64,000 nucleotides of DNA from Vannielia sp. Lineage in GTDB: Bacteria; Pseudomonadota; Alphaproteobacteria; Rhodobacterales; Rhodobacteraceae. The notes under the pieces are model-generated. The model ran no database searches. It saw only the letters and a list, made by a program, of their open reading frames with translations, and was not told the origin of the DNA. Shown piece by piece: positions 5,403 through 45,729 of the stretch (position 1 is the stretch's first letter; the number at the start of each line of letters is the position of its first letter). The translations under genes and the position numbers were made by a program. The stretch covers positions 58,292 to 122,291 of the forward strand of contig NZ_JARGND010000002.1 in the NCBI RefSeq assembly GCF_029212645.1, given 5' to 3'.

Positions 5403-5885
5403 ATGGCCGCGCCTTACTTCGCAGGCGCGGCCATGACCGCGCAGCGCGTCCGATACCAGCGTCTTGCCCGTGCCATGGCCATCGTGGGCCTCGCCGCTTG
5501 GGCGATTGGCACGCTCGGCTCTGTGCTCGGCCAACTCAACCCCGATCTCTTCCACCGCTTCGGCGCTCTCGGCGTTGCCGCTTCGGTGCTGTTCTTCAGT
5601 GACCGGATGCTTCAGGTCGAACTCGCCCGCCAACGCTCGGTCGAGCGGATGCTGCATGAGTTTGGCGTTGAGCTGGAGGTCATGCGCTCGGGCACCGAGC
5701 CAACCGATATCCCCTCCGAGGGCTATGTCGTCGATTTCCTCACCGAGGAGCGCAACTTTGACGCGCTGCACCAGCGGGCCGATCTGAACTCAACCTTCAA
5801 TGTCGCGCTGCTCACCGTCGCCACCCTGCAATGGGGTTTTGGCGACATGTTTTTGCGCTGGCTGAACGGCGGGGTAACGCTTTGA
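5403..5885 (+). CDS. Conserved hypothetical membrane protein
   Basis: A 160-residue protein, or 150 if translation starts at the second Met at 5433. Two hydrophobic segments near the N-terminus (MAIVGLAAWAIGTLGSVLG and GALGVAASVLFFSD) precede a charged region predicted to be helical (RMLQVELARQRSVERMLHEF). A C-terminal hydrophobic stretch NVALLTVATLQWGFGDMFLR follows. I do not recognise the family. It sits inside the sox cluster between soxB and soxD, on the same strand. Confidence 0.6.
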   Translation: MAAPYFAGAAMTAQRVRYQRLARAMAIVGLAAWAIGTLGSVLGQLNPDLFHRFGALGVAASVLFFSDRMLQVELARQRSVERMLHEFGVELEVMRSGTEPTDIPSEGYVVDFLTEERNFDALHQRADLNSTFNVALLTVATLQWGFGDMFLRWLNGGVTL

Positions 5886-5906: not shown

Positions 5907-5974
5907 AAACGCGTATGCATGGAGTGTGCATCGCTTGTGCATTACTTGTGCCCCTTCGCTTTTTGCAATTAACG
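5907..5974 (+). promoter_or_regulatory. Phased TGCAT element, copy 1 (upstream of soxD)
   Basis: A 68-bp intergenic element. TGCAT starts at 5916, 5927 and 5938, and TG recurs at 5949, which is an exact 11-bp period. It is preceded by AAACGC and ends with TTAACG, 24 bp before the soxD start codon. A second copy lies at 44930-44997 on the other strand with the same spacings. By hand alignment 50 of 68 positions agree, and 36 of the first 42. It is probably a protein-binding array or leader element; no family is recognised. Confidence 0.6.
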
Positions 5975-5997: not shown

Positions 5998-6321
5998 ATG
6001 CTGAAATTCACCTGCCCCGCCTGCCGGATCGAGGCCTGCGAGAGTGAGCTTGTTAACGGTGGCGAGGCCCATCTTACCCGCTCCGGCCCCGGCGACAGTG
6101 ACGAGATGTTTGAGCGTTACCTCTTCATGCGCAAAAATCCGAAAGGCGTGCATTTTGAGCGGTGGCGTCATGCCATGGGTTGCGGCAAATGGTTCATCGC
6201 CGCCCGCCACACCGCCACGCTGGAGGTGTTTGGCACCTATCCCGCCCAAGCCCATGAGCCGCCCGCCGATGTGATCGCGGCGATCAAATCCCGATACCCC
6301 GCGTGGGAGGGCTTCAAGTGA
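5998..6321 (+). CDS. soxD: Sarcosine oxidase delta subunit
   Basis: Small zinc-binding subunit of heterotetrameric sarcosine oxidase, 107 residues. It has the expected N-terminal Cys pair (FTCPACRIEACES), the DEMFERYLFMRKNPKG segment and a later HAMGCGKWFIAARH metal-ligand region. Its stop overlaps the soxA start (GTGA), which indicates translational coupling. Upstream lies the phased TGCAT element rather than an upstream sox gene, so soxDAG may have its own promoter or processing site. Confidence 0.95.
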   Translation: MLKFTCPACRIEACESELVNGGEAHLTRSGPGDSDEMFERYLFMRKNPKGVHFERWRHAMGCGKWFIAARHTATLEVFGTYPAQAHEPPADVIAAIKSRYPAWEGFK

Positions 6322-10950: not shown

Positions 10951-12500
10951 TCGGCGGGGGGCCTTCCCTTGATCGGGGTGTCGCTGAGGATCCTGACCCG
11001 GACCCGTTTCTTCGCTGGGGTCGCTCCGGCCTCGGCTGGCGAGGCGGAGCGTGACCTTTTTGGGGGCGCACCCCCAATCCGGGTGGCAGCGGTTTCACCC
11101 TTTTTGCTTGATTTGCTCGCAGTGGCGGCCTTTTCGGCGCGCATGGCGGCCATTTCGGCATGGCCTTCACGCATCTTCTGTTCGATCAGAACGCGGGTTT
11201 CTTCGGGGATCGCCTCTTCGTCGGAAATCCGGTCTTCGACCTGCTCTCCCTCGCCAGCGGCGGCGGCAAGGGCTTGTTCCCGCTCGTTTTTTACGCGCAT
11301 CTTGGCGTTTTTGGTGCCCGCGACCAGCAGCGCGATCTCCCGATCAGGCACCCCGGCCTCCTGCATTTCCTTGATCTTCTGTTGCCAGATCTTGGGCAGG
11401 TGTTTGGTAAAGAGCACCTCGTTCAGCTTGTCGATCGGGATGGCGGAGGCTTCGCGCAGCTCTTCCAGCCATTGATCGTATTCGCCGGTGTGGCGCAGCG
11501 ATTCAACCCGGTGGTAATGGTAGATCAGCGCCTCTTCCTGCAAGCGGCGCAGTTCATCATCCTTCAACATAGCTTCCATGAGCCGCTTGGTGGCGCGGGC
11601 ATGGCGGGTGGCGTTGGTGGCCTTGATCTCGTTGCGGTCGAAAATGGCGAAGTAGCCGGCGTTATACTTGTCGGCCTTGTTGTTCACATTGCCGCGCATC
11701 CGGCGCAGCAGATAGGCCTCGTAGCTTTTTACGCCGTAGTGGTTCAACTCGACCAGATCATAGCCCAGCGACTTGCCGTTCGAGCGCCAGCCGGAGAGAT
11801 TGAACTCATTGTCCACATACTCGCCAGAGCCGTTGACCCACTTTTGCTCAAGCATCTGCTGCGCGCGCTCGGGCAGGCGTTTGGCACCCTTCATATGCGG
11901 GCGGTGGATGCCGAGTTTCATCTCCTCAAACGGCTTGAACATCGTTTTGACGCCCCAGCCCTTGCGAAATCGGTCCGGCGCGGCGCGGGTGTAGCTTTCG
12001 GTGACAAGGCCGGGGTTCCAATCCACCACATCGTTGCAGCCAAAAAACCGCCAGGTGATGTTGATTGCATCGGTATCTGCGGGCAGTTGCTCCACCAGAT
12101 CCCAAATCTTGCCACGGCCGCATTTGATTGAAACAAACTCATCGGCATCCATGGTGAGGATCCACTCAGAGTTCAGCACCTGCTCGTTTTTCATCGCCAG
12201 CATCAGGGCGTTGGGCTGGGGTTTTTTGCCTTCTGGCACCTCATTGTCATAGTGATGACAATAACCCAATTCCTCCAACCGTTTCAGCATCTTGTCAGAG
12301 CCGTCGTTGCAGTTGTTGGTGTAAACGCAGATGTTATCAAAACCAACCTGACGATGGTAAGCGACCCACTCCAGCAAGCAGTGGCCCTCGTCCTTCATCA
12401 TCGACAGGATGGTAAATTTGGATGTCTCGCCGTCACTCATCGGCTGCTGCCCCCTTGGCGCGGGCTCCCCTGTGCTCATGGGCCTGCCTGTGCGGCCCAA
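10947..12500 (-). CDS. Glycosyltransferase family 2-like protein (PF13704 type), long C-terminal extension
   Basis: Paralogue of the next gene. Shared signatures are LSMMKDEGHCLLEWVAYHRQ, VYTNNCNDGSDKMLKRL, TMDADEFVSIKCG and ELNHYGVKSYEAYLLRRMRG. The product has up to 517 residues; starts at 12479 (MSTGEP) or 12440 (MSDGET) are equally possible and would remove a non-conserved leader. After the catalytic part a roughly 190-residue tail begins: first predicted helical and charged, then Ala/Lys/Ser/Pro-rich and basic (PPKRSRSASPAEAGATPAKK). The tail is unusual for a glycosyltransferase and may be disordered. Confidence 0.8.
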   Translation of the reverse strand: MGRTGRPMSTGEPAPRGQQPMSDGETSKFTILSMMKDEGHCLLEWVAYHRQVGFDNICVYTNNCNDGSDKMLKRLEELGYCHHYDNEVPEGKKPQPNALMLAMKNEQVLNSEWILTMDADEFVSIKCGRGKIWDLVEQLPADTDAINITWRFFGCNDVVDWNPGLVTESYTRAAPDRFRKGWGVKTMFKPFEEMKLGIHRPHMKGAKRLPERAQQMLEQKWVNGSGEYVDNEFNLSGWRSNGKSLGYDLVELNHYGVKSYEAYLLRRMRGNVNNKADKYNAGYFAIFDRNEIKATNATRHARATKRLMEAMLKDDELRRLQEEALIYHYHRVESLRHTGEYDQWLEELREASAIPIDKLNEVLFTKHLPKIWQQKIKEMQEAGVPDREIALLVAGTKNAKMRVKNEREQALAAAAGEGEQVEDRISDEEAIPEETRVLIEQKMREGHAEMAAMRAEKAATASKSSKKGETAATRIGGAPPKRSRSASPAEAGATPAKKRVRVRILSDTPIKGRPPAE

Positions 12501-12726
12501 ACCTCGTGCGTGGTGCTGGCCTTCAGCCTAGTCCTGCAAAGTTAACAGAGGCACAACAGCGGCCAGCAGACCCTCCCGGCGCTGATGGCCGGGTTTCTCT
12601 CAGCATACCTTAGATAGAGGTGAAGTCACCCCCCGCTTACGGCGTTGTTTCCGCTCCGCTGACAATTCTAGCCACCGTTTCCGGGCCTTTCCCGGCTATT
12701 TGCCGCCCAATCTGCCCCTCCAGCCC

Positions 12727-12756
12727 TTGACCTTGCCCGCCACCGTGCTCTTTATC
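12727..12756 (+). promoter_or_regulatory. Candidate sodB promoter
   Basis: TTGACC at 12727-12732 and TTTATC at 12751-12756 are separated by 18 bases and lie about 35 bases before the sodB start. The -35 match is good and the -10 match is poor, so this is a suggestion only. Confidence 0.3.
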
Positions 12757-12791
12757 CCCACAAGCGCATTCAACAGACAGGAGAGGCTCCA

Positions 12792-13391
12792 ATGGCTTTC
12801 GAACTTCCCGATCTTCCTTACGCCCATGACGCACTGGCCGAGCATGGCATGTCCAAGGAAACCCTCGAATATCACCACGATATCCACCACAAGGCCTATG
12901 TTGACAACGGCAACAAGGCCATCGCCGGGACCGAGTGGGAAGGCAAATCTGCCGAAGAGATCATCAAGGGCACCTATGATGCCTCCTCCGTGGCGCAGAA
13001 CGGCATCTTCAACAACATCTCGCAATTCTGGAACCACACCCAGTTCTGGGAGATGATGGGCCCCGGCAACGCCGGTATGCCCGGTGAGCTTGAGTCTGCG
13101 TTGAAAGAGGCTTTCGGTTCGGTCGACAAATTCAAGGAAGAGTTCTCCGCCGCAGGTGCAGGCCAGTTCGGCTCGGGCTGGTGCTGGCTGGTGAAAGACA
13201 GCGACGGTTCGCTCAAGGTGACCAAAACAGAGAACGGCGTGAACCCGCTCTGCTTTGGCCAAACCGCGCTGCTTGGCTGCGACGTGTGGGAGCACAGCTA
13301 CTACATTGATTTCCGCAACAAACGCCCGGCTTACCTGAGCAACTTCCTCGACAAGCTGGTCAACTGGGAAAACGTCGCCTCGCGCATGTAA
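12792..13391 (+). CDS. sodB: Iron superoxide dismutase
   Basis: Converts superoxide to O2 and H2O2 in the cytosol. The 199 residues match the Fe/Mn-SOD family. Metal ligands are visible as His28 (LEYHHDIHHKAYV), His82 (FWNHTQFW), Asp164 and His168 (CDVWEHSYY). The GAGQFGSGWCWLV segment and overall pattern favour iron. A good ribosome site (GGAGAGG) precedes the ATG. The gene is monocistronic, with a clear terminator downstream. It is a natural partner of the H2O2-producing sarcosine oxidase nearby, though no direct link is shown. Confidence 0.96.
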   Translation: MAFELPDLPYAHDALAEHGMSKETLEYHHDIHHKAYVDNGNKAIAGTEWEGKSAEEIIKGTYDASSVAQNGIFNNISQFWNHTQFWEMMGPGNAGMPGELESALKEAFGSVDKFKEEFSAAGAGQFGSGWCWLVKDSDGSLKVTKTENGVNPLCFGQTALLGCDVWEHSYYIDFRNKRPAYLSNFLDKLVNWENVASRM

Positions 13392-13417
13392 GAGCGGCAG
13401 TTTTCAAGAGGTCTGAG

Positions 13418-13442
13418 CGCCCACCTTTTCGGTGGGCGTTTT
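13418..13442 (+). terminator. Rho-independent terminator of sodB
   Basis: A perfect 8-bp stem CGCCCACC/GGTGGGCG with loop TTTTC is followed by TTTT. It lies 26 bp after the sodB stop codon. Confidence 0.85.
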
Positions 13443-13582
13443 CCTTTGCTCCGGTATCGCGAGGCTGGGTTGGTCGCCTGCGCGTAGGCAGACGACAGAG
13501 ACGAAAGAGTAGTCCTGCAACTGGCTGTGGGGCACAAACGGGCTTAGGGCCGGACTGCACCTATCCCCAAAGGGGTCCAGCC

Positions 13583-13868
13583 ATATCCGCCTCCTCTTTC
13601 TCTGCTTTCCTGGGAGCTTCAGTTCCTCGCGCCGCCATATCCGCTCAACCCTCTTATGGTTCACATGCCAGCCGGCATTGTTCAGCACACCAGCCATCAC
13701 CCGATAGCCATAGCGGCCATATTGCCGGGCCAGATCGATCACATTCACGGTCAGCCGTTCTTTATCAGCTTGGCCTCGCGGGACCTCGCGTTGTGTGGAT
13801 TGGTGCTGGCCCAGAGTTCGGCAGGCGTGGCGCTCCGATGCCGCTATCGCCATTGCTGACAAGACCAC
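13583..13868 (-). pseudogene. IS3-family transposase OrfB, N-terminal fragment
   Basis: About 95 codons match the start of the integrase-type OrfB of IS3-family elements: SERHACRTLGQHQSTQRE, ARQYGRYGYRVMAGVLNNAGW, NHKRVERIWRREELKLP. Similarity ends abruptly after KQRKRRRIWL, and the frame then runs into unrelated sequence towards the sodB terminator. The DDE catalytic core is missing, so it is dead. No matching OrfA is seen upstream. It is oriented opposite to the other transposase fragment at 14416-14862. Confidence 0.8.
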
Positions 13869-14415
13869 AGCGCTGGATTTTGGGAGTGTCAGCCGCGATA
13901 TCGACCGCGCAATCCGGAACGCGGAAGATGACGCTGAGGACTCCGTGACGGCCGTATGCGCGACACTGGAAGCAGTCTGCTGATCAATCCTCCTTGAGCT
14001 CGGTCAGAGCCTGCCGGCGAAGAAGGGTATCTTTTCGCTCGTGCGTGCCGTTCAGCAGCTGCTTGGACTCTCACCCGGGCGCACGGACCTGCCACGAGCA
14101 CGAGGAAGCGGATATGGCGCGAGCGTTAACTGGGGGAGCTGACGACTTGGTTTAGATGCGTTGAGCACGAAGGCGTCGACAGGGCGTGCCAGTGGGCTTG
14201 CAAAGCGACTTTGCTAGTTTTGTGCATCGCCTCGTGTTGATCGACCTTGAGGACAAAGCAAGAAATCGGTGTGAAATTTACGCTGAAGCGCAAAATTTTG
14301 ATAATTACGCTACAACGTAAGTTATCGTGAGCCAGGACCGTAGCGGTCTTTGGAGGTCCTACGCCCTTGTGACGCAGTATGACGAGTCCAGTTAACTTTC
14401 GCGTGCCAAGTTCGG
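13869..14415. other. Gene-free part of the insertion-sequence scar
   Basis: No protein gene is supported. The stretch is less GC-rich than its surroundings between about 14260 and 14330. It holds the tandem imperfect inverted repeats listed separately (14278-14320), which look like operator sites left without a target gene. Confidence 0.5.
14278..14320 (+). promoter_or_regulatory. Two tandem imperfect inverted repeats (orphan operator-like sites)
   Basis: TTACGCTGAAGCGCAA (14278-14293) and TTACGCTACAACGTAA (14305-14320) agree at 12 of 16 positions and start 27 bp apart. The second has TTACG/CGTAA arms. The form resembles MerR-family operators of acyl-CoA degradation genes, which is inference from memory. 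No such gene is adjacent; the next downstream sequence is transposase debris. Confidence 0.35.
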
Positions 14416-14862
14416 ATCCTCTACACCGCGTTTCTGATTGCTGAACATAAGCAGGCAGCCGTGCCGGACGCGGTGCAATCCACTGTGTATCGGGTGCTGA
14501 AGGCGCATGATCTGATCACCCGTCCTGCGTTCATCGTCATCAAGGCAGCCATCTGTCCCAAAAACCCTGACGACGGACACGCGCCATATCATCCGCAAAC
14601 CCAAGGTAAGATCGAACGATGGCCTCAAACCTTGAAGAACCGCATTTTGCTGGAAAACTACTTCCTTCCGGGTGACCTCGAAGCTCAAATCGAAGCCTTC
14701 GTCGATCACTTCAATCACCAATGTTACAATGAGAGCATCAACAACGTCACACCTTCCGACGTCTACTTCGGCCGTGACAAAGCCATTCTAAAACAAAGGG
14801 AAAGGATCAAACGAAAGACACTCGAAGCGCGACGCTTGCATCACCGCCAGAACGCCGCGTAA
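14416..14862 (+). pseudogene. IS3-family transposase, internally deleted C-terminal part
   Basis: The frame carries a middle segment (STVYRVLKAHDLITRPAFIV) joined directly to the late integrase core (APYHPQTQGKIERW, ENYFLPGDLEAQIEAFVDHF, PSDVYFGRDKAILKQRERI). The intervening region with the first two catalytic Asp residues is absent. In its place is a 22-bp sequence (14558-14579) identical to one just beyond the gene end. The fragment is therefore a deletion remnant and not functional. Its C-terminal stop at 14860-14862 looks natural for this family. Confidence 0.85.
14558..14579 (+). repeat. 22-bp direct repeat, internal copy (IS end-like)
   Basis: A 22-base sequence beginning CCAAAAACCCTGACG and ending CGACGGACA, identical to 14915-14936. 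It sits exactly at the deletion joint inside the transposase remnant. The CA end is what an IS3-family terminal repeat would show. Confidence 0.75.
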
Positions 14863-14914
14863 TCAAACCAACCAGATGAGCCAAACGCTCTCTTAGTTTG
14901 CGCCGCCATTGGTG

Positions 14915-14936
14915 CCAAAAACCCTGACGACGGACA
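14915..14936 (+). repeat. 22-bp direct repeat, probable right end of the IS
   Basis: Same 22 bases as 14558-14579, 52 bp after the transposase stop, ending in CA, as expected for the right terminal repeat of an IS3-family element. I could not find the complementary left end upstream. Confidence 0.65.
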
Positions 14937-15305
14937 GGCACCGTCACTCACGCGGACGCATACCGATGCAGATAACTGAAATTTAGCGCGACCGAAGCGG
15001 CTTTCAGCCCATAGCTGCTGCCATTGACCAACCAATTAGGATGCCGCGTTGCGGCCCGCCAAACCGGTCGTTCGCTGGAGTACCCCCCTGGGTGGCCCCC
15101 AACTGGGATTGTATTGTCCCGTTTGGAATTCATCCCGTTTCTGGTCCGGTCTTCATGCGACCTTTCGGGTTTGTGGGGGTCTTCAACTGTGGCATCAGAG
15201 ATCATCGCGGCGGCCAAATCTGAGCGATAGGATCGCCTAGCGCTGCCCATTACGACCGCTTGCAATTCTGCTGTGCGGCAGAAGTCATAAAATCACGTCT
15301 CAAAT
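14937..15305. other. Gene-free stretch after the IS remnant
   Basis: Several overlapping open frames occur on both strands but none shows a known motif or a plausible ribosome site. I see no repeat or terminator. Probably degraded sequence between the IS remnant and the glycosyltransferase gene. Confidence 0.45.
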
Positions 15306-16181
15306 CTAAGCAACGTCCAAATTTTCATCGCCCGCCTGAACGCCGCCCCAGATGCCATGAACCCTTTTCATGTAGAGGGCGCATTGTCTGTTGGCCTCGT
15401 ACCTGTTGGCGTCATCGATCACAGCCTGGTTGAGAGCATCGACGTGGCGCTGCTGGGTATGCAGATACCGCGCGCCATGCGATATGGCCCAGCCAGAGTG
15501 GCCGTTCTTCATCGCACACCCTGAAAGCCAAACGTCATCGACGGCCCATAGCACCTTGGGAATATCGAATACTTCGTCGGAAAAGAAGCGAGGCTGGACC
15601 ATCACACCCCCGACGCCTTCAACCACATCTACATATCCGGAGCGCAGATACTGGTTTCTCCACGGCTTCTCATGACGCCCAAGCTTCGTGCGACCCGTAC
15701 GAAGCATCGTGCCTAGTTTCCGGATGGTATAACCGGGGTTGAAGTAGCGATGGGTCGAGATGGCTCGTGGGCGCGGTGCGTAGGGATCACCGGCCAAATC
15801 GAAGAATGGGAGATTCCATCCCGAAGTGCACAGGGCGTTATCGGGGTGTTTCTGTCTGGCCTTCAAAAACCTCTCCGACCAATCGGGGAGATAGATGCAA
15901 TCATCATCGCAGAACAAAATATCTGTTTCTGGTTCGTCGCGGAAGTCTTTAATTGCGTGCAACACCTTGGACGCTGGCCCGTAGTCTTCGTCAGTCTGCC
16001 GGATCTCCACGCCGCGCGGAACTTGGGGAAGCGAACCGTCGTAGTCCGGGAAACGCCGATAGCGCTTCGGAATGTAGAGGATCACACGATCCGCAGGCGC
16101 ATTCTGTCCCACCAGAGCTTCAAGGACAGGTTGTAAGCGTTCGAATCTCGATGGGATGGCTGAGAGAGTAATGACATACAT
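15306..16181 (-). CDS. GT-A fold glycosyltransferase-like protein
   Basis: I chose the start at 16181 (MYVITLSAIPSRFERL), giving 291 residues; the longer frame adds an unlikely leader. A donor-binding strand precedes the acidic metal motif DILFCDDDCIYLPDW. GWNLPFF, GYVDVVEGVGGVMVQP and VLWAVDDVWLSGCAMKNG follow, which fit a family 2-like enzyme with its catalytic acid near DDVW. No signal or membrane segment is seen. It is isolated between IS debris and tRNA-Cys, which suggests acquisition or rearrangement. Substrate unknown. Confidence 0.7.
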   Translation of the reverse strand: MYVITLSAIPSRFERLQPVLEALVGQNAPADRVILYIPKRYRRFPDYDGSLPQVPRGVEIRQTDEDYGPASKVLHAIKDFRDEPETDILFCDDDCIYLPDWSERFLKARQKHPDNALCTSGWNLPFFDLAGDPYAPRPRAISTHRYFNPGYTIRKLGTMLRTGRTKLGRHEKPWRNQYLRSGYVDVVEGVGGVMVQPRFFSDEVFDIPKVLWAVDDVWLSGCAMKNGHSGWAISHGARYLHTQQRHVDALNQAVIDDANRYEANRQCALYMKRVHGIWGGVQAGDENLDVA

Positions 16182-16414
16182 TTTGCCTAGTGCGCTCCTA
16201 AAGTGAATTTGGGAGCGAGAGACCACGATAGACCAGTGCAATGCAAGTGGCGCAGATGTTGCAGTGGAGCGTGATTATCAGTGCTGACGTCAGACAGAGG
16301 TTCGGCAGCGCGTAAGGGCCATTGAGGCCCAGCGAAAGAGGGCGGAACAAAAGCAGAATATTTAGACGGCGCGGGCGCGGCGTCTTGGCTTCCGTCTAAG
16401 TCATTGATCTTAAA

Positions 16415-16488
16415 TGGAGGCGAGTACCGGAATCGAACCGGTGTACACGGATTTGCAATCCGCTGCGTAACCACTCCGCCAACTCGCC
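16415..16488 (-). tRNA. tRNA-Cys (GCA)
   Basis: On the minus strand 74 bases fold as a cloverleaf. The acceptor GGCGAGT pairs with ACTCGCC, and the TTGCAAA anticodon loop has GCA in the centre. GGTTCGATTCC forms the T arm, and the CCA is encoded. A GCA anticodon reads cysteine codons UGC and UGU. Confidence 0.95.
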
Positions 16489-42530: not shown

Positions 42531-43658
42531 ATGAGCGCATTGCGTGGAGATATCGACCCGGATGGGTTGCTGGAGTTCTCGGTGGTGTTTACGGACCGGT
42601 CCCTCAACCATATGAGCAAGGCATTTCAGGAGGTTATGCGCGATATCTCCGCAGGCCTGAAAGCCGCCTACAACGCACATGCGGTGGCCGTGGTGCCGGG
42701 CGGCGGCACCTATGCGATGGAAGCCGTCGCGCGCCAACTGGCCAGGGACGAAGCCGTCATGGTCATCCGCAATGGTTTTTTCTCCTACCGCTGGAGCCAG
42801 ATTTTTGCCGCGGGGAACATCCCCAGCGATGAGCATGTGATGAAGGCGCGGCGCGAGGGCAATGACCCTCAGGCACCGTTCTCTCCGGCCCCGATTGAAG
42901 AGGTCGTCGCCGCCATCAAATCAGAAGCCCCGGCGCTGGTTTTTGCCCCCCACGTTGAAACCGCGAGCGGGATGATCCTGCCGGATGAGTACATTGCGGC
43001 GCTGGCCGAGGCCGTGCACTCTGTGGGCGGTTTGCTGGTGCTGGATTGCATCGCATCGGGCTGCATTTGGGTAGATATGGAGGCGCTTGGCGTCGATGTG
43101 TTGATCTCGGCGCCGCAAAAGGGCTGGTCGGCGCCGCCTTCGGCTGGGTTGGTCATGCTCTCGGCGCGGGCCGAGGAGAAGGTGGCCGAGACCAAATCCG
43201 ATAGTTTTGCCTGCGATCTGGGCCGTTGGCTGGCGATCATGCAGAGCTATGAGGCGGGGGGCCATGCTTACCACGCGACCATGCCCACAGACAGCCTACG
43301 CGTGTTCCGCAATGCGCTGAAGGAAAGCCAGGAGATTGGCCTTGATGTCCTGAAAACCCGCCAGCAAGACCTGGGTGACAAAGCCCGCGCACTCTTGGCG
43401 CAAAAGGGCCTGAAAAGCGTTGCAGCGCAAGGGTTTGAGGCGCCGGGCGTGGTGGTTGTTTACACCGAAAACGCCGAGCTGCAGACCGGGCGGGCCTTTG
43501 CCGCCGAAGGGGTGCAAATTGCCGCCGGGGTGCCGCTGATGATCGACGAAGGGGCCAACTACAAGAGTTTCCGCATCGGTCTTTTTGGCCTTGATAAGCT
43601 GGCCGATGTTGATGCTACCGTAAGCCGCCTCGCCAAGGTGCTGGAGAAGGTGCTTTAG
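42531..43658 (+). CDS. Class V aminotransferase (alanine-glyoxylate aminotransferase-like)
   Basis: A 375-residue PLP enzyme. VVPGGGTYAMEAVARQL binds the cofactor phosphate, GGLLVLDCIASGCIWVDM holds the PLP-ring Asp (about 172), and SAPQKGWSAPPSAGLVML has the Schiff-base Lys197. The C-terminal domain contains RIGLFGLDKLADVDATV. The family uses alanine, serine or related donors with glyoxylate or pyruvate; the exact pair cannot be assigned. It is convergent with ubiH and overlaps it by four bases. Confidence 0.87.
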   Translation: MSALRGDIDPDGLLEFSVVFTDRSLNHMSKAFQEVMRDISAGLKAAYNAHAVAVVPGGGTYAMEAVARQLARDEAVMVIRNGFFSYRWSQIFAAGNIPSDEHVMKARREGNDPQAPFSPAPIEEVVAAIKSEAPALVFAPHVETASGMILPDEYIAALAEAVHSVGGLLVLDCIASGCIWVDMEALGVDVLISAPQKGWSAPPSAGLVMLSARAEEKVAETKSDSFACDLGRWLAIMQSYEAGGHAYHATMPTDSLRVFRNALKESQEIGLDVLKTRQQDLGDKARALLAQKGLKSVAAQGFEAPGVVVVYTENAELQTGRAFAAEGVQIAAGVPLMIDEGANYKSFRIGLFGLDKLADVDATVSRLAKVLEKVL

Positions 43659-44836
43659 CGCCCCATTCCGGCGTCCATGACGCGGCGGCGGAGCGGGGCG
43701 ATATCTGCCACCGCTCGCAGGCCCGCCAACCGCAACCCTTGCAGCGGCGGCAGGCCGGAGCGGGTGAGGCGGTTGTAAAGGCCAATGGCCCCAACCCGCG
43801 CGGCGATATCGCTGGCGCGGGATTTTTCATAGGCATCAAGGTGTTGACGGGTGCCAAGCTGCCCCGGTTTAACGGCCTCGACCAAGGCGGCGATATCGTT
43901 CAACGAGGTGTTCAGCCCCTGCGCCCCGATCGGCGGGATCACATGCGCCGCCTCGGCCACGAGGGCGACACGCTGCGCGGTGAGGTGCTTGGCCTTTAGT
44001 GTGACGATCGGGAAGGTGGCGCGGCCAGAGGCCAGCGTGAGCGGGCCGAACACATTGGCAGAGCGGGTGGTGGCCTCTTGCGAAAATGCTTCATCGTCAA
44101 GGGCTTGCAGGCGCGCGGTTTCGGGCCCGGGGGTCATCCAGACGACAGCGGAGGCGTGGCTGCCAGCGTGATCGGGGAGGGGGATGAGCGTGAAGGGGCC
44201 GCCCTGGTTATAGACCTCGGTCGATACATCATGATGCGGCTCGGGGTGGGTGGCCGTGAAGGCCAGCGCCTTTTGTCCGAACCGGTTGATCTGGGCGTCG
44301 ATCCCGGCAAGCCTGCGGGTGCCAGATTCGCGCCCGTCCGCCCCGATCACAAGGCGGGCTTCAAGGCTCTCACCGCTCGACAAACGGGCGATGGCATGGG
44401 CCTCGCGAAGGGTGAGCCCGGTGAGGGTGCTGCCCCAGAGAAGCGTGACATTTTCTCTTTCTTCCAAGTCACTTAGCAGCACATCGGCGATACGCCAGTT
44501 CATCAGGTTCTGGGCCAGCGGAGGGGTGCCTTCATCCTGCGAAACGAAGGTGCGGCTATCGCGGATTTCGGGGGGCCAACCGGTGGTATCAACGATGCGC
44601 AATTGCTGGAGCGGCTGGGCATGTGGGGCGAGGTGGGACCAAAGGCCAGCCTCCTCGAAGAGGGTGATGGCCGGGTCAAGAAAGGCGGTTGAGCGCAGGT
44701 CACCGCGATCATCGCGCAGGGGCGCTTTGGGAGCCACCAGGGTGACGCTGTAACCCCTTTGCGCAAAGGCTGCGGCGGCGGTGAGGCCGGCGATGCCGCC
44801 CCCGGCGATGAGGATATCGGTTTGGGTCCGTGACAT
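43655..44836 (-). CDS. Ubiquinone biosynthesis FAD-dependent hydroxylase (UbiH/UbiF/UbiL family)
   Basis: A 393-residue aromatic-ring monooxygenase of coenzyme Q synthesis. FAD motif ILIAGGGIAGLTAAAAFAQRG, the DG region VIGADGRESGTRRLAG, and VALVAEAAHVIPPIGAQGLN with NTSLNDIAALVEA are typical of the UbiH group. Which ring position (C1, C5 or C6) it hydroxylates cannot be told from sequence. Copy 2 of the phased TGCAT element lies about 94 bp upstream in the same orientation relative to the gene as copy 1 to soxD. Confidence 0.87.
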   Translation of the reverse strand: MSRTQTDILIAGGGIAGLTAAAAFAQRGYSVTLVAPKAPLRDDRGDLRSTAFLDPAITLFEEAGLWSHLAPHAQPLQQLRIVDTTGWPPEIRDSRTFVSQDEGTPPLAQNLMNWRIADVLLSDLEERENVTLLWGSTLTGLTLREAHAIARLSSGESLEARLVIGADGRESGTRRLAGIDAQINRFGQKALAFTATHPEPHHDVSTEVYNQGGPFTLIPLPDHAGSHASAVVWMTPGPETARLQALDDEAFSQEATTRSANVFGPLTLASGRATFPIVTLKAKHLTAQRVALVAEAAHVIPPIGAQGLNTSLNDIAALVEAVKPGQLGTRQHLDAYEKSRASDIAARVGAIGLYNRLTRSGLPPLQGLRLAGLRAVADIAPLRRRVMDAGMGR

Positions 44837-44929: not shown

Positions 44930-44997
44930 CGTTAACCGCGAATTTGTGCAGGCCACAAGAGATGCACAAGGGATGCACACCCCATGCACATGCGTTT
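44930..44997 (-). promoter_or_regulatory. Phased TGCAT element, copy 2 (upstream of ubiH)
   Basis: Read on the minus strand it begins AAACGC, has TGCAT at exactly 11-bp steps (plus-strand ATGCA at 44984, 44973, 44962) and ends TTAACG. The distance from the third TGCAT to TTAAC is 31 bp in both copies. The gap to the ubiH start is about 94 bp, against 24 bp for soxD. It lies in the 245-bp gap between ubiH and the HAD gene. Confidence 0.6.
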
Positions 44998-45081
44998 ATG
45001 CAAAACGACGACGGGTTAACCGGGCGAGCGTTGCTTGGCGGGGCAAGCGCGGTTTGGCGGGGCAAGCACCGTGCGGCCCGA

Positions 45082-45729
45082 TCAGGAGAGGCGCGACAGG
45101 AAGCCGGTGAGATCCGCCGTGTGATGGTGGATGTGATCGGCCGGGGCGGGCGTGGGCGCCACATGAACGGTGCGCATCCCCATCGCGTGAGGTGCTGCAA
45201 GATTGCGCGGATCATCCTCAAACATCGCGGCTTGCCCCGGCTCCACCCCTGCGGCGGAAAAGATGGTTTCAAAGGCGGCGCGCTCGGGCTTGGGGCGAAA
45301 GCCCGCATGCTCCACCCCGAAAACCGCATCGAAGGTGTCTTGCAAGCCACGCGCCTTGAGCACCCGGCGGGCGTAAGGCTCGGAGCCGTTGGTGAAAACG
45401 ATCTTGCGACCGGGCAGGGCAGTGATGGCGGCGGCAAGGGCCGGGTCCGCCTTGAGGTGGGTGAGCGAAATATCGTGCACATCGGTCAGGTAAGGGGCGG
45501 GATCAACGCCGTGAACCTGCATCAACCCGGCCAACGTGGTGCCATATTTGGCCCAATAGTCCTTGCGCAGGCGGTCGGCCTCGGGCTGTGCGATGCCAAG
45601 AGCCTGCATGACCCAGGCGGTCATCCGCACCTCGATTTGGTCAAACAGCCGCGCCTCGGGGGGGTAGAGGGTATTGTCGAGATCAAAGACCCAGGTGGCG
45701 ACGTGAGAGAAGAGGTGGGCATGTGGCAT
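45082..45729 (-). CDS. HAD family pyrimidine 5'-nucleotidase
   Basis: A 215-residue HAD hydrolase. Motif I WVFDLDNTLYPPEARLF has the nucleophilic Asp pair, motif II is IVFTNGSEPYARRVL, motif III is the Lys in FRPKPERAAFE, and motif IV is AAMFEDDPRNLAAPHAMG. The DNTLYPP form groups it with SDT1/PHM8-type pyrimidine 5'-nucleotidases. Substrate is inferred from that resemblance. Confidence 0.88.
   Translation of the reverse strand: MPHAHLFSHVATWVFDLDNTLYPPEARLFDQIEVRMTAWVMQALGIAQPEADRLRKDYWAKYGTTLAGLMQVHGVDPAPYLTDVHDISLTHLKADPALAAAITALPGRKIVFTNGSEPYARRVLKARGLQDTFDAVFGVEHAGFRPKPERAAFETIFSAAGVEPGQAAMFEDDPRNLAAPHAMGMRTVHVAPTPAPADHIHHHTADLTGFLSRLS

Follow-up and report, generated by a model that had tools for sequence, protein, structure and literature searches.

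Arrays of four head-to-tail 11-bp units are scattered over the chromosomes of Vannielia sp. and several of its relatives, and their orientation is locked to the sign of the local GC skew. Read in the direction of the array, the skew of the surrounding 3-4 kb was negative at 63/64 sites in Vannielia, at 55/56 in Oceanicola and at all 22 sites examined in Harenicola (140/142 in the three genomes together). Our preferred reading, to which we give a probability of roughly 40%, is that the arrays form a chromosome-wide oriented DNA signal that marks where a directional, strand-asymmetric DNA process begins or has its edge.

The arrays came to attention through two copies in the 64,000-nucleotide stretch of Vannielia DNA analyzed here (the window), which a sequence-only reading had described as a 68-bp element with three TGCAT words at 11-bp steps. 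Its coordinates, steps, flanks and counts were exact for both copies when re-checked, including an identity of 50/68 positions (36/42 over the first 42) between the two, copy 1 lying at 5907-5974 on the plus strand and copy 2, compared as its reverse complement, at 44930-44997 on the minus strand; no other 68-mer of the window matches copy 1 at more than 36 positions. The three TGCAT words are present as described, but the array has four units, starting at 5914, 5925, 5936 and 5947 in copy 1 and, reading leftwards, at 44990, 44979, 44968 and 44957 in copy 2, with a fourth unit (TGTGC in copy 1, TGTGG in copy 2) that falls short of the full word. The second copy is likewise real, although its position on the minus strand had gone unmentioned. 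A search with the array pattern, allowing up to 3 mismatches, returned 4 overlapping matches in the window, all within the two copies, against a mean of 0.02 in 100 shuffled sequences. The features at and around the two copies, with genes called by a purpose-written codon-usage script, are:

5403-5885, plus strand: gene without a Pfam or NCBIfam match, whose end lies 28 bp ahead of the copy 1 array
5914-5957, plus strand: four-unit array of copy 1, TATGCATGGAG / TGTGCATCGCT / TGTGCATTACT / TGTGCCCCTTC (profile match G000:C3:64186-64268, E 2.2e-20)
5969-5974, plus strand: TTAACG, the flank in the style of this genome, 17 bp 3' of TTGTGC in copy 1
5998-6321, plus strand: soxD, sarcosine oxidase delta subunit (above the Pfam cut-off, below the NCBIfam cut-off)
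43655-44836, minus strand: UbiH/UbiF-family hydroxylase, its start lying 3' of copy 2; an Oceanicola m2 array has the same neighbours (L154, L285)
44930-44937, minus strand: GGTTAACG, downstream of copy 2
44947-44990, minus strand: four-unit array of copy 2, TGTGCATGGGG / TGTGCATCCCT / TGTGCATCTCT / TGTGGCCTGCA (profile match G000:C3:103218-103310, E 2.8e-21)
45015-45020, no strand assigned: GTTAAC palindrome 5' of copy 2, marking the left boundary in many Vannielia copies
45082-45729, minus strand: pyrimidine 5'-nucleotidase (HAD family), ending on the 5' side of copy 2

Elsewhere in the window, GC content drops to about 0.55-0.58 at 12440-16420, and the GC skew changes sign near 15 kb. A tRNA (16418-16488, minus strand) lies beside this stretch, no gene was called at 13.4-15.3 kb, and the neighbours include a superoxide dismutase gene and one with a weak match to glycosyltransferases; the stretch may represent an island or the edge of an inversion.

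The sequence-only reading had suggested a profile search of this genome and its relatives, and many intergenic copies were indeed found, excluding a chance pair. Over the whole Vannielia assembly (3.2 Mb in 96 contigs, 87% complete) the array pattern matched 126 times with up to 3 mismatches, several matches falling on each site, and a reversed-pattern control gave none. A 95-position profile built from 23 copies had 65 matches at E ≤0.01 among the best 150 of 571 candidates; 64 of these have E ≤3e-7, and the remaining one is a 31-bp partial match (E 0.004). In four other genera the profile returned 57 (Harenicola), 43, 84 and 20 matches at E ≤0.01, many covering the array part only, and there were 56 profile matches on the 4.31-Mb chromosome of Oceanicola sp. 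m2, a MAG.

The strict pattern was present in 7 of the 248 sampled genomes of the family, Vannielia included, and in 2 of the 142 in a class sample, these being Vannielia and one genome with a single one-mismatch match. At E ≤1e-4 the profile had matches in at least 9/149 family genomes, with the best ≤28 candidates scored per genome. In a wider scan of a sequence collection, the genera among the matches listed are Oceanicola, Marivivens, Actibacterium, Vannielia, Thalassobius, Cognatishimia, Pelagimonas, Harenicola and others. Since the arrays are missing from most sampled members, the process that they would mark is probably dispensable for the Rhodobacteraceae overall. By eye, no comparable array was seen upstream of lpd in 28 genomes besides Vannielia (lpd was found in 29 of the 31 genomes searched). 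One genome (G011, L323) has a single TTGTGCATG word upstream of lpd, where other genera carry an array, and also gave three weak profile matches; these are perhaps relics of a lost system. A phage-borne origin was rejected, as the 10 viral contigs that match the pattern appear by eye to be tandem or low-complexity tracts, and a second pattern starting with unit 1 matched no viral contig. One Vannielia copy (L025), compared with 72,556 plasmids, had no match.

The core common to the genera consists of the four units, TATGCATSRSW followed by TGTGCATSRSW, and the flanks are genus-specific. The first word is TATGCAT, TGTGCAT or TGCGCAT and is followed by three TGTGCAT words, the fourth unit being mostly shortened to TGTGG or TGTGC in Vannielia. 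Between the words, the four bases are mostly S, R, S and W in three genomes, with C also occurring at position 9 of unit 3 in Vannielia. All unit positions (TGTGCAT plus S-R-S-W) are constrained across units 1-3 of 137 of the 142 sites, 411 units in total. Judged from the spacing, the 11-bp step is compatible with the helical pitch, and a protein could therefore bind along one face of the DNA, as the sequence-only reading had proposed.

In the flanks, GTTAAC occurs about 31 bp upstream of many Vannielia copies and also in many Oceanicola copies, and several sub-types of TTGTG(G/C)-17 bp-TTAACG follow the array in most Vannielia copies. The constant spacing to TTAAC that had been noted in the two window copies holds for most copies in Vannielia and many in Oceanicola; the 30 copies inspected in four other genomes all lack TTAAC downstream, which therefore lies outside the shared core. 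Right-flank identity is 0.82 to the nearest copy within Vannielia, 0.47 to the orthologous Oceanicola copy and 0.40 for non-orthologous pairs, and this within-genome likeness points either to homogenisation or to drift of a second recognition. The 5' flanks of some Vannielia copies (L002, L015, L019, L020, L025) carry alternative modules, for example an ATGTCA-AA-TGACAT palindrome, TTGCANNNNTGCAT and other A-rich stretches, which pair with differing right-flank types in a mosaic-like manner.

As a general pattern, the expectation that copies would lie in front of genes did not hold: they favour convergent gene ends and avoid divergent promoter regions. Among the 58 Vannielia sites with both neighbours called, 24 are convergent and 4 divergent, and the Oceanicola sites behave alike (17/53 and 3/53), as compared with 9/109 convergent and 33/109 divergent regions in background samples of Oceanicola m2 intergenic regions of at least 80 bp, and 5/28 and 10/28 among those of the window. 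For the Vannielia sites the difference is significant against the Oceanicola background (Fisher P 8e-7 for convergent and 4e-4 for divergent regions) and is also seen against the window (P 0.05 and 0.001, respectively).

In Oceanicola and Harenicola the arrays are also widely spaced. The 56 sites of Oceanicola m2 leave no gap below 14 kb where 9.2 would be expected (0/20,000 simulations as low), and the 56 listed of the 57 Harenicola sites leave 5 gaps below 20 kb against an expected 13.5 (P 0.0014). Vannielia has array pairs at 4.6, 8.0 and 9.5 kb, and 8/24 of its within-contig gaps are below 20 kb. The closest Harenicola pair (G232:C3:395490 and 397892) is 2.4 kb apart, with the start of a long ORF in between (L302, 2270-4000).

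Many array places are old. Neighbour genes are held in common with an Oceanicola m2 site at 37 of the 64 Vannielia sites, with the same orientation at 34 of these 37, as compared with 9/64 Vannielia sites matching a random 240 kb of the Oceanicola chromosome; in Harenicola, 5 of the 22 sites examined share neighbours with a Vannielia site. Both window copies are among the 37 conserved places, through soxD (L163, L263) and the UbiH gene (L154, L285), and soxD homologues adjoin an array both in Oceanicola m2 and in genome G084.

The excess of negative array-oriented skew appears in every class of gene context (47/47 at convergent sites), and the mean same-strand coding fractions around the arrays are 0.52-0.62; transcription is therefore unlikely to cause the skew. 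In further family and class assemblies, skew was negative at 68 of 74 distinct loci (79 before the removal of 5 duplicates, and including two Harenicola loci), and at 4/16 matches in other groups, which we read as chance matches. Agreement is lower for coarse skew samples, which reach distances of about 100 kb or more (40/56 in Oceanicola, 45/56 in Harenicola). Harenicola samples comprise 56 listed sites for spacing and coarse skew, 22 for context and polarity, and 15 for the step analysis below.

A second repeat of the Rhodobacteraceae served as a control for polarity. Like the array, this AAATAYTCCGGGGG-type repeat is dispersed at gene ends, with a different sequence, and it occupies the gap before lpd in several array-free genomes (L317, L318, L320, L325, L327, L332 and others). 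The pattern TCTTN{4,14}AAATAYNCNNGGGG, with genome-specific lead words, matched 106/149 family genomes, up to 171 times with overlaps included. The two families are not cleanly exclusive, as Vannielia has 4 matches and genome G063 has 16. Unlike the arrays, this repeat shows no clear skew polarity (13:7 in 20 copies of genome G010, in which skew is weak).

To what extent the orientation follows replication can be seen in Oceanicola, where parS places the origin near 3.73 Mb and 16/20 skew samples have the sign expected from the replichore. There, 37 of the 56 arrays are concordant with the replichore (P 0.022), and the agreement with local skew, at 55/56, is stronger; around the 19 replichore-discordant arrays the local skew is reversed to fit the array in 18 cases. 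Three of the 20 skew samples are clearly discordant with the replichore, and each lies on the 5' side of, or contains, an array of fitting orientation; the fourth off-sign sample (3,711 kb) has a value close to zero. Neither a runs test nor an arc test of array orientation along the Oceanicola chromosome reached significance.

The skew not only agrees with the arrays but steps at them. On fine maps covering about 1.24 Mb of Vannielia and Harenicola, the skew stepped as predicted at 22 of 26 arrays over 10 kb (21/26 over 6 or 20 kb), with a mean step of 0.048 at arrays as compared to 0.0035 at random places. By genome, this held for 14/15 arrays in Harenicola, which carries the result, and for 8/11 in Vannielia, the latter not significant alone; window copy 2 steps as predicted, and copy 1 is one of the three Vannielia arrays that step the opposite way. 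Third-codon skew was −0.265 within 8 kb 5' of the array; 3' of it, values were −0.18 up to 4 kb and about −0.10 from there to 12 kb, with a like trend in genes of both strands. On the 5' side it weakened to about −0.14 at 28-32 kb and returned to −0.21 to −0.23 beyond 32 kb, where there are fewer windows; since these values recur at 36-40 kb, the decay on this side is not clean. Adding array terms to contig means raised the explained variance of the skew from 0.54 to 0.68-0.76, in a fit without cross-validation. Among 64 listed family and class loci (10 of them Oceanicola or Harenicola), skew at 2-8 kb was −0.090 5' of the array and −0.039 3' of it; the bins are not independent.

A possible, though doubtful, alternative is that the array is a site of chromosome architecture, such as an anchor for a nucleoid protein, a translocase or an SMC-type motor, placed with replication polarity; discordant sites would then lie in small inverted segments and the local skew would be ordinary replication skew. 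The replichore bias in Oceanicola m2 fits this, as do the wide spacing, the avoidance of promoters, the 12 consecutive minus-strand sites on Harenicola C1, and the broad skew plateau near 0.15 that accompanies eight minus-strand arrays at 100-500 kb of that contig. However, orientation tracks skew within 2 kb, even at the discordant sites (18/19), some neighbours 20-36 kb apart alternate, and all three clearly discordant skew samples adjoin or contain a fitting array. Many micro-inversions carrying arrays would reproduce the local agreement without the step, and a plain inversion predicts no polar step. It is unlikely that the array is instead a REP/BIME-like repeat, spread by a putative transposase and homogenised per genome, with gene ends as harmless insertion places. 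The genome-specific flank subfamilies (right flank 0.82 within Vannielia vs 0.47 to Oceanicola) and the extragenic gene-end location, which is typical of BIMEs, argue for such a repeat; yet the array is not palindromic, its places and orientation are common to different genera, and only one weak match lies below the strong set in Vannielia (E ≤0.01, best 150 of 571 candidates). The plasmid comparison of L025 and the tandem or low-complexity nature of the viral matches, as judged by eye, also speak against mobility of this kind, which moreover leaves the skew polarity unexplained.

The direction of the strand asymmetry would also suit an oriT-like or packaging signal, with one-way single-strand transfer or GTA packaging starting at the arrays, and tandem direct repeats are common beside oriT nick sites, while GTAs are widespread in the Rhodobacteraceae. 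We nevertheless find this quite improbable, as double-stranded GTA DNA would bring no obvious strand asymmetry and some 60 such sites per genome are, to our knowledge, without precedent. We give even less credence to an operator array for a transcription factor of the OmpR/PhoB type controlling a regulon. Its tandem 11-bp direct repeats are present, the 7 + 4 bp geometry resembles that of pho boxes, and some sites lie close upstream of a gene (5 bp for lpd, 21 bp for soxD), but the adjacency to a promoter −35 box is missing, and no consensus sigma-70-like promoter was called at either window copy. The preference for convergent gene ends over divergent promoter regions runs against a regulon, and neither spacing nor skew polarity would be explained.

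The idea of a small RNA found no support, since among 23 copies there was no pair with changes on both sides, and folding was ordinary (z-scores of 0.90, 0.39, −0.57 and −1.34 for the two copies on both strands, with DNA parameters). Rfam at the gathering score reported one tRNA only in the window. The stretch TTGTG(G/C)-17 bp-TTAACG resembles the −35 and −10 boxes of a promoter, a candidate that we rejected, as no consensus promoter was called and the copies inspected in four other genomes lack TTAACG. DnaA boxes (TTWTNCACA) were rejected as well: the A at unit position 8 that the second T needs occurs in 15 of the 411 units. The array does resemble the low-affinity DnaA-box arrays of oriC, DARS and datA in that ATGCACA fits TNCACA and in its 11-bp head-to-tail pitch; unlike them, it avoids the leading T beside the core and has a nearly fixed base at the N position. 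A comparison of DnaA domain IV across 20 genomes, by eye, showed nothing distinctive. Harenicola has three TTATNCACA words in a 270-bp stretch near parS.

A fork trap based on Tus was rejected, the Tus family (PF05472) being found at E ≤0.01 in 0/6 array genomes and, among 14 controls, in E. coli only; a fork trap of another kind is conceivable. Like Tus-Ter and RTP-Ter, the arrays may be polar protein-DNA sites acting on replication; unlike Ter sites, which surround the terminus, they are spread over the whole chromosome. Chi and KOPS, which act on a moving DNA motor, are directional signals found at many chromosomal places where orientation matters, and in this they are similar. However, these are single 8-mers in hundreds of copies, whereas arrays come in tens, with four 11-bp units each; a Chi-like word every few kb is not what we see (20-84 profile matches per genome in six genomes, at the densest about 1 per 50 kb), and array orientation tracks local skew more closely than the replichore, along which KOPS point toward the terminus. 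With REP/BIME elements (cf. PMC12306157), the arrays share tens of copies at gene ends and a genome-specific consensus; in contrast to them, the array lacks a palindrome, consists of ordered direct repeats, and has places and orientation common to genera. The combination of array, shared places and local skew step appears to belong to no known kind that we tested or are aware of, and a survey of the literature at the level of listings found no description of such an element. Our searches also turned up no protein that would bind it.

Returning to a directional, strand-asymmetric process as the preferred reading, we infer that a cooperative, sequence-specific protein would bind the four units on one helix face, as a head-to-tail filament, and that the arrays would be kept in promoter-poor intergenic gaps, often at conserved places. 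The strand effect begins at the array or shortly past it, and the process would run away from the unit-1 (5') end over roughly 10-30 kb and leave the strand with ATGCACA (the array complement) depleted in C relative to G. By the established reasoning on GC skew, applied here to the arrays, the strand losing C would be the lagging template if synthesis proceeds from the array toward its 5' side, and we therefore favour a launch or reset site for DNA synthesis or repair. In the favoured form, DNA synthesis or unwinding would be launched or reset at the array, for example in fork restart or break repair, so that the array would serve, much as Chi does, as a "begin here" signal, though a cooperative one. 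Accessory synthesis is another conceivable form of the process, and unwinding or strand transfer toward the 5' side would give the same C loss. A bolder version, which we hold to be rather doubtful, is that the arrays are about 60 dispersed unidirectional sites of DNA-synthesis start or restart or of single-strand processing, each imprinting a strand-composition domain of tens of kb that locally overrides the single-origin pattern.

GC skew in bacteria is normally taken as a property of the whole replichore. Here it steps at a defined four-unit signal and follows the array also where this opposes the replichore. Should the coupling prove causal, some 60 chromosomal sites would host a directional DNA process that awaits discovery; if not, the arrays still constitute a conserved chromosomal landmark with strong polarity.
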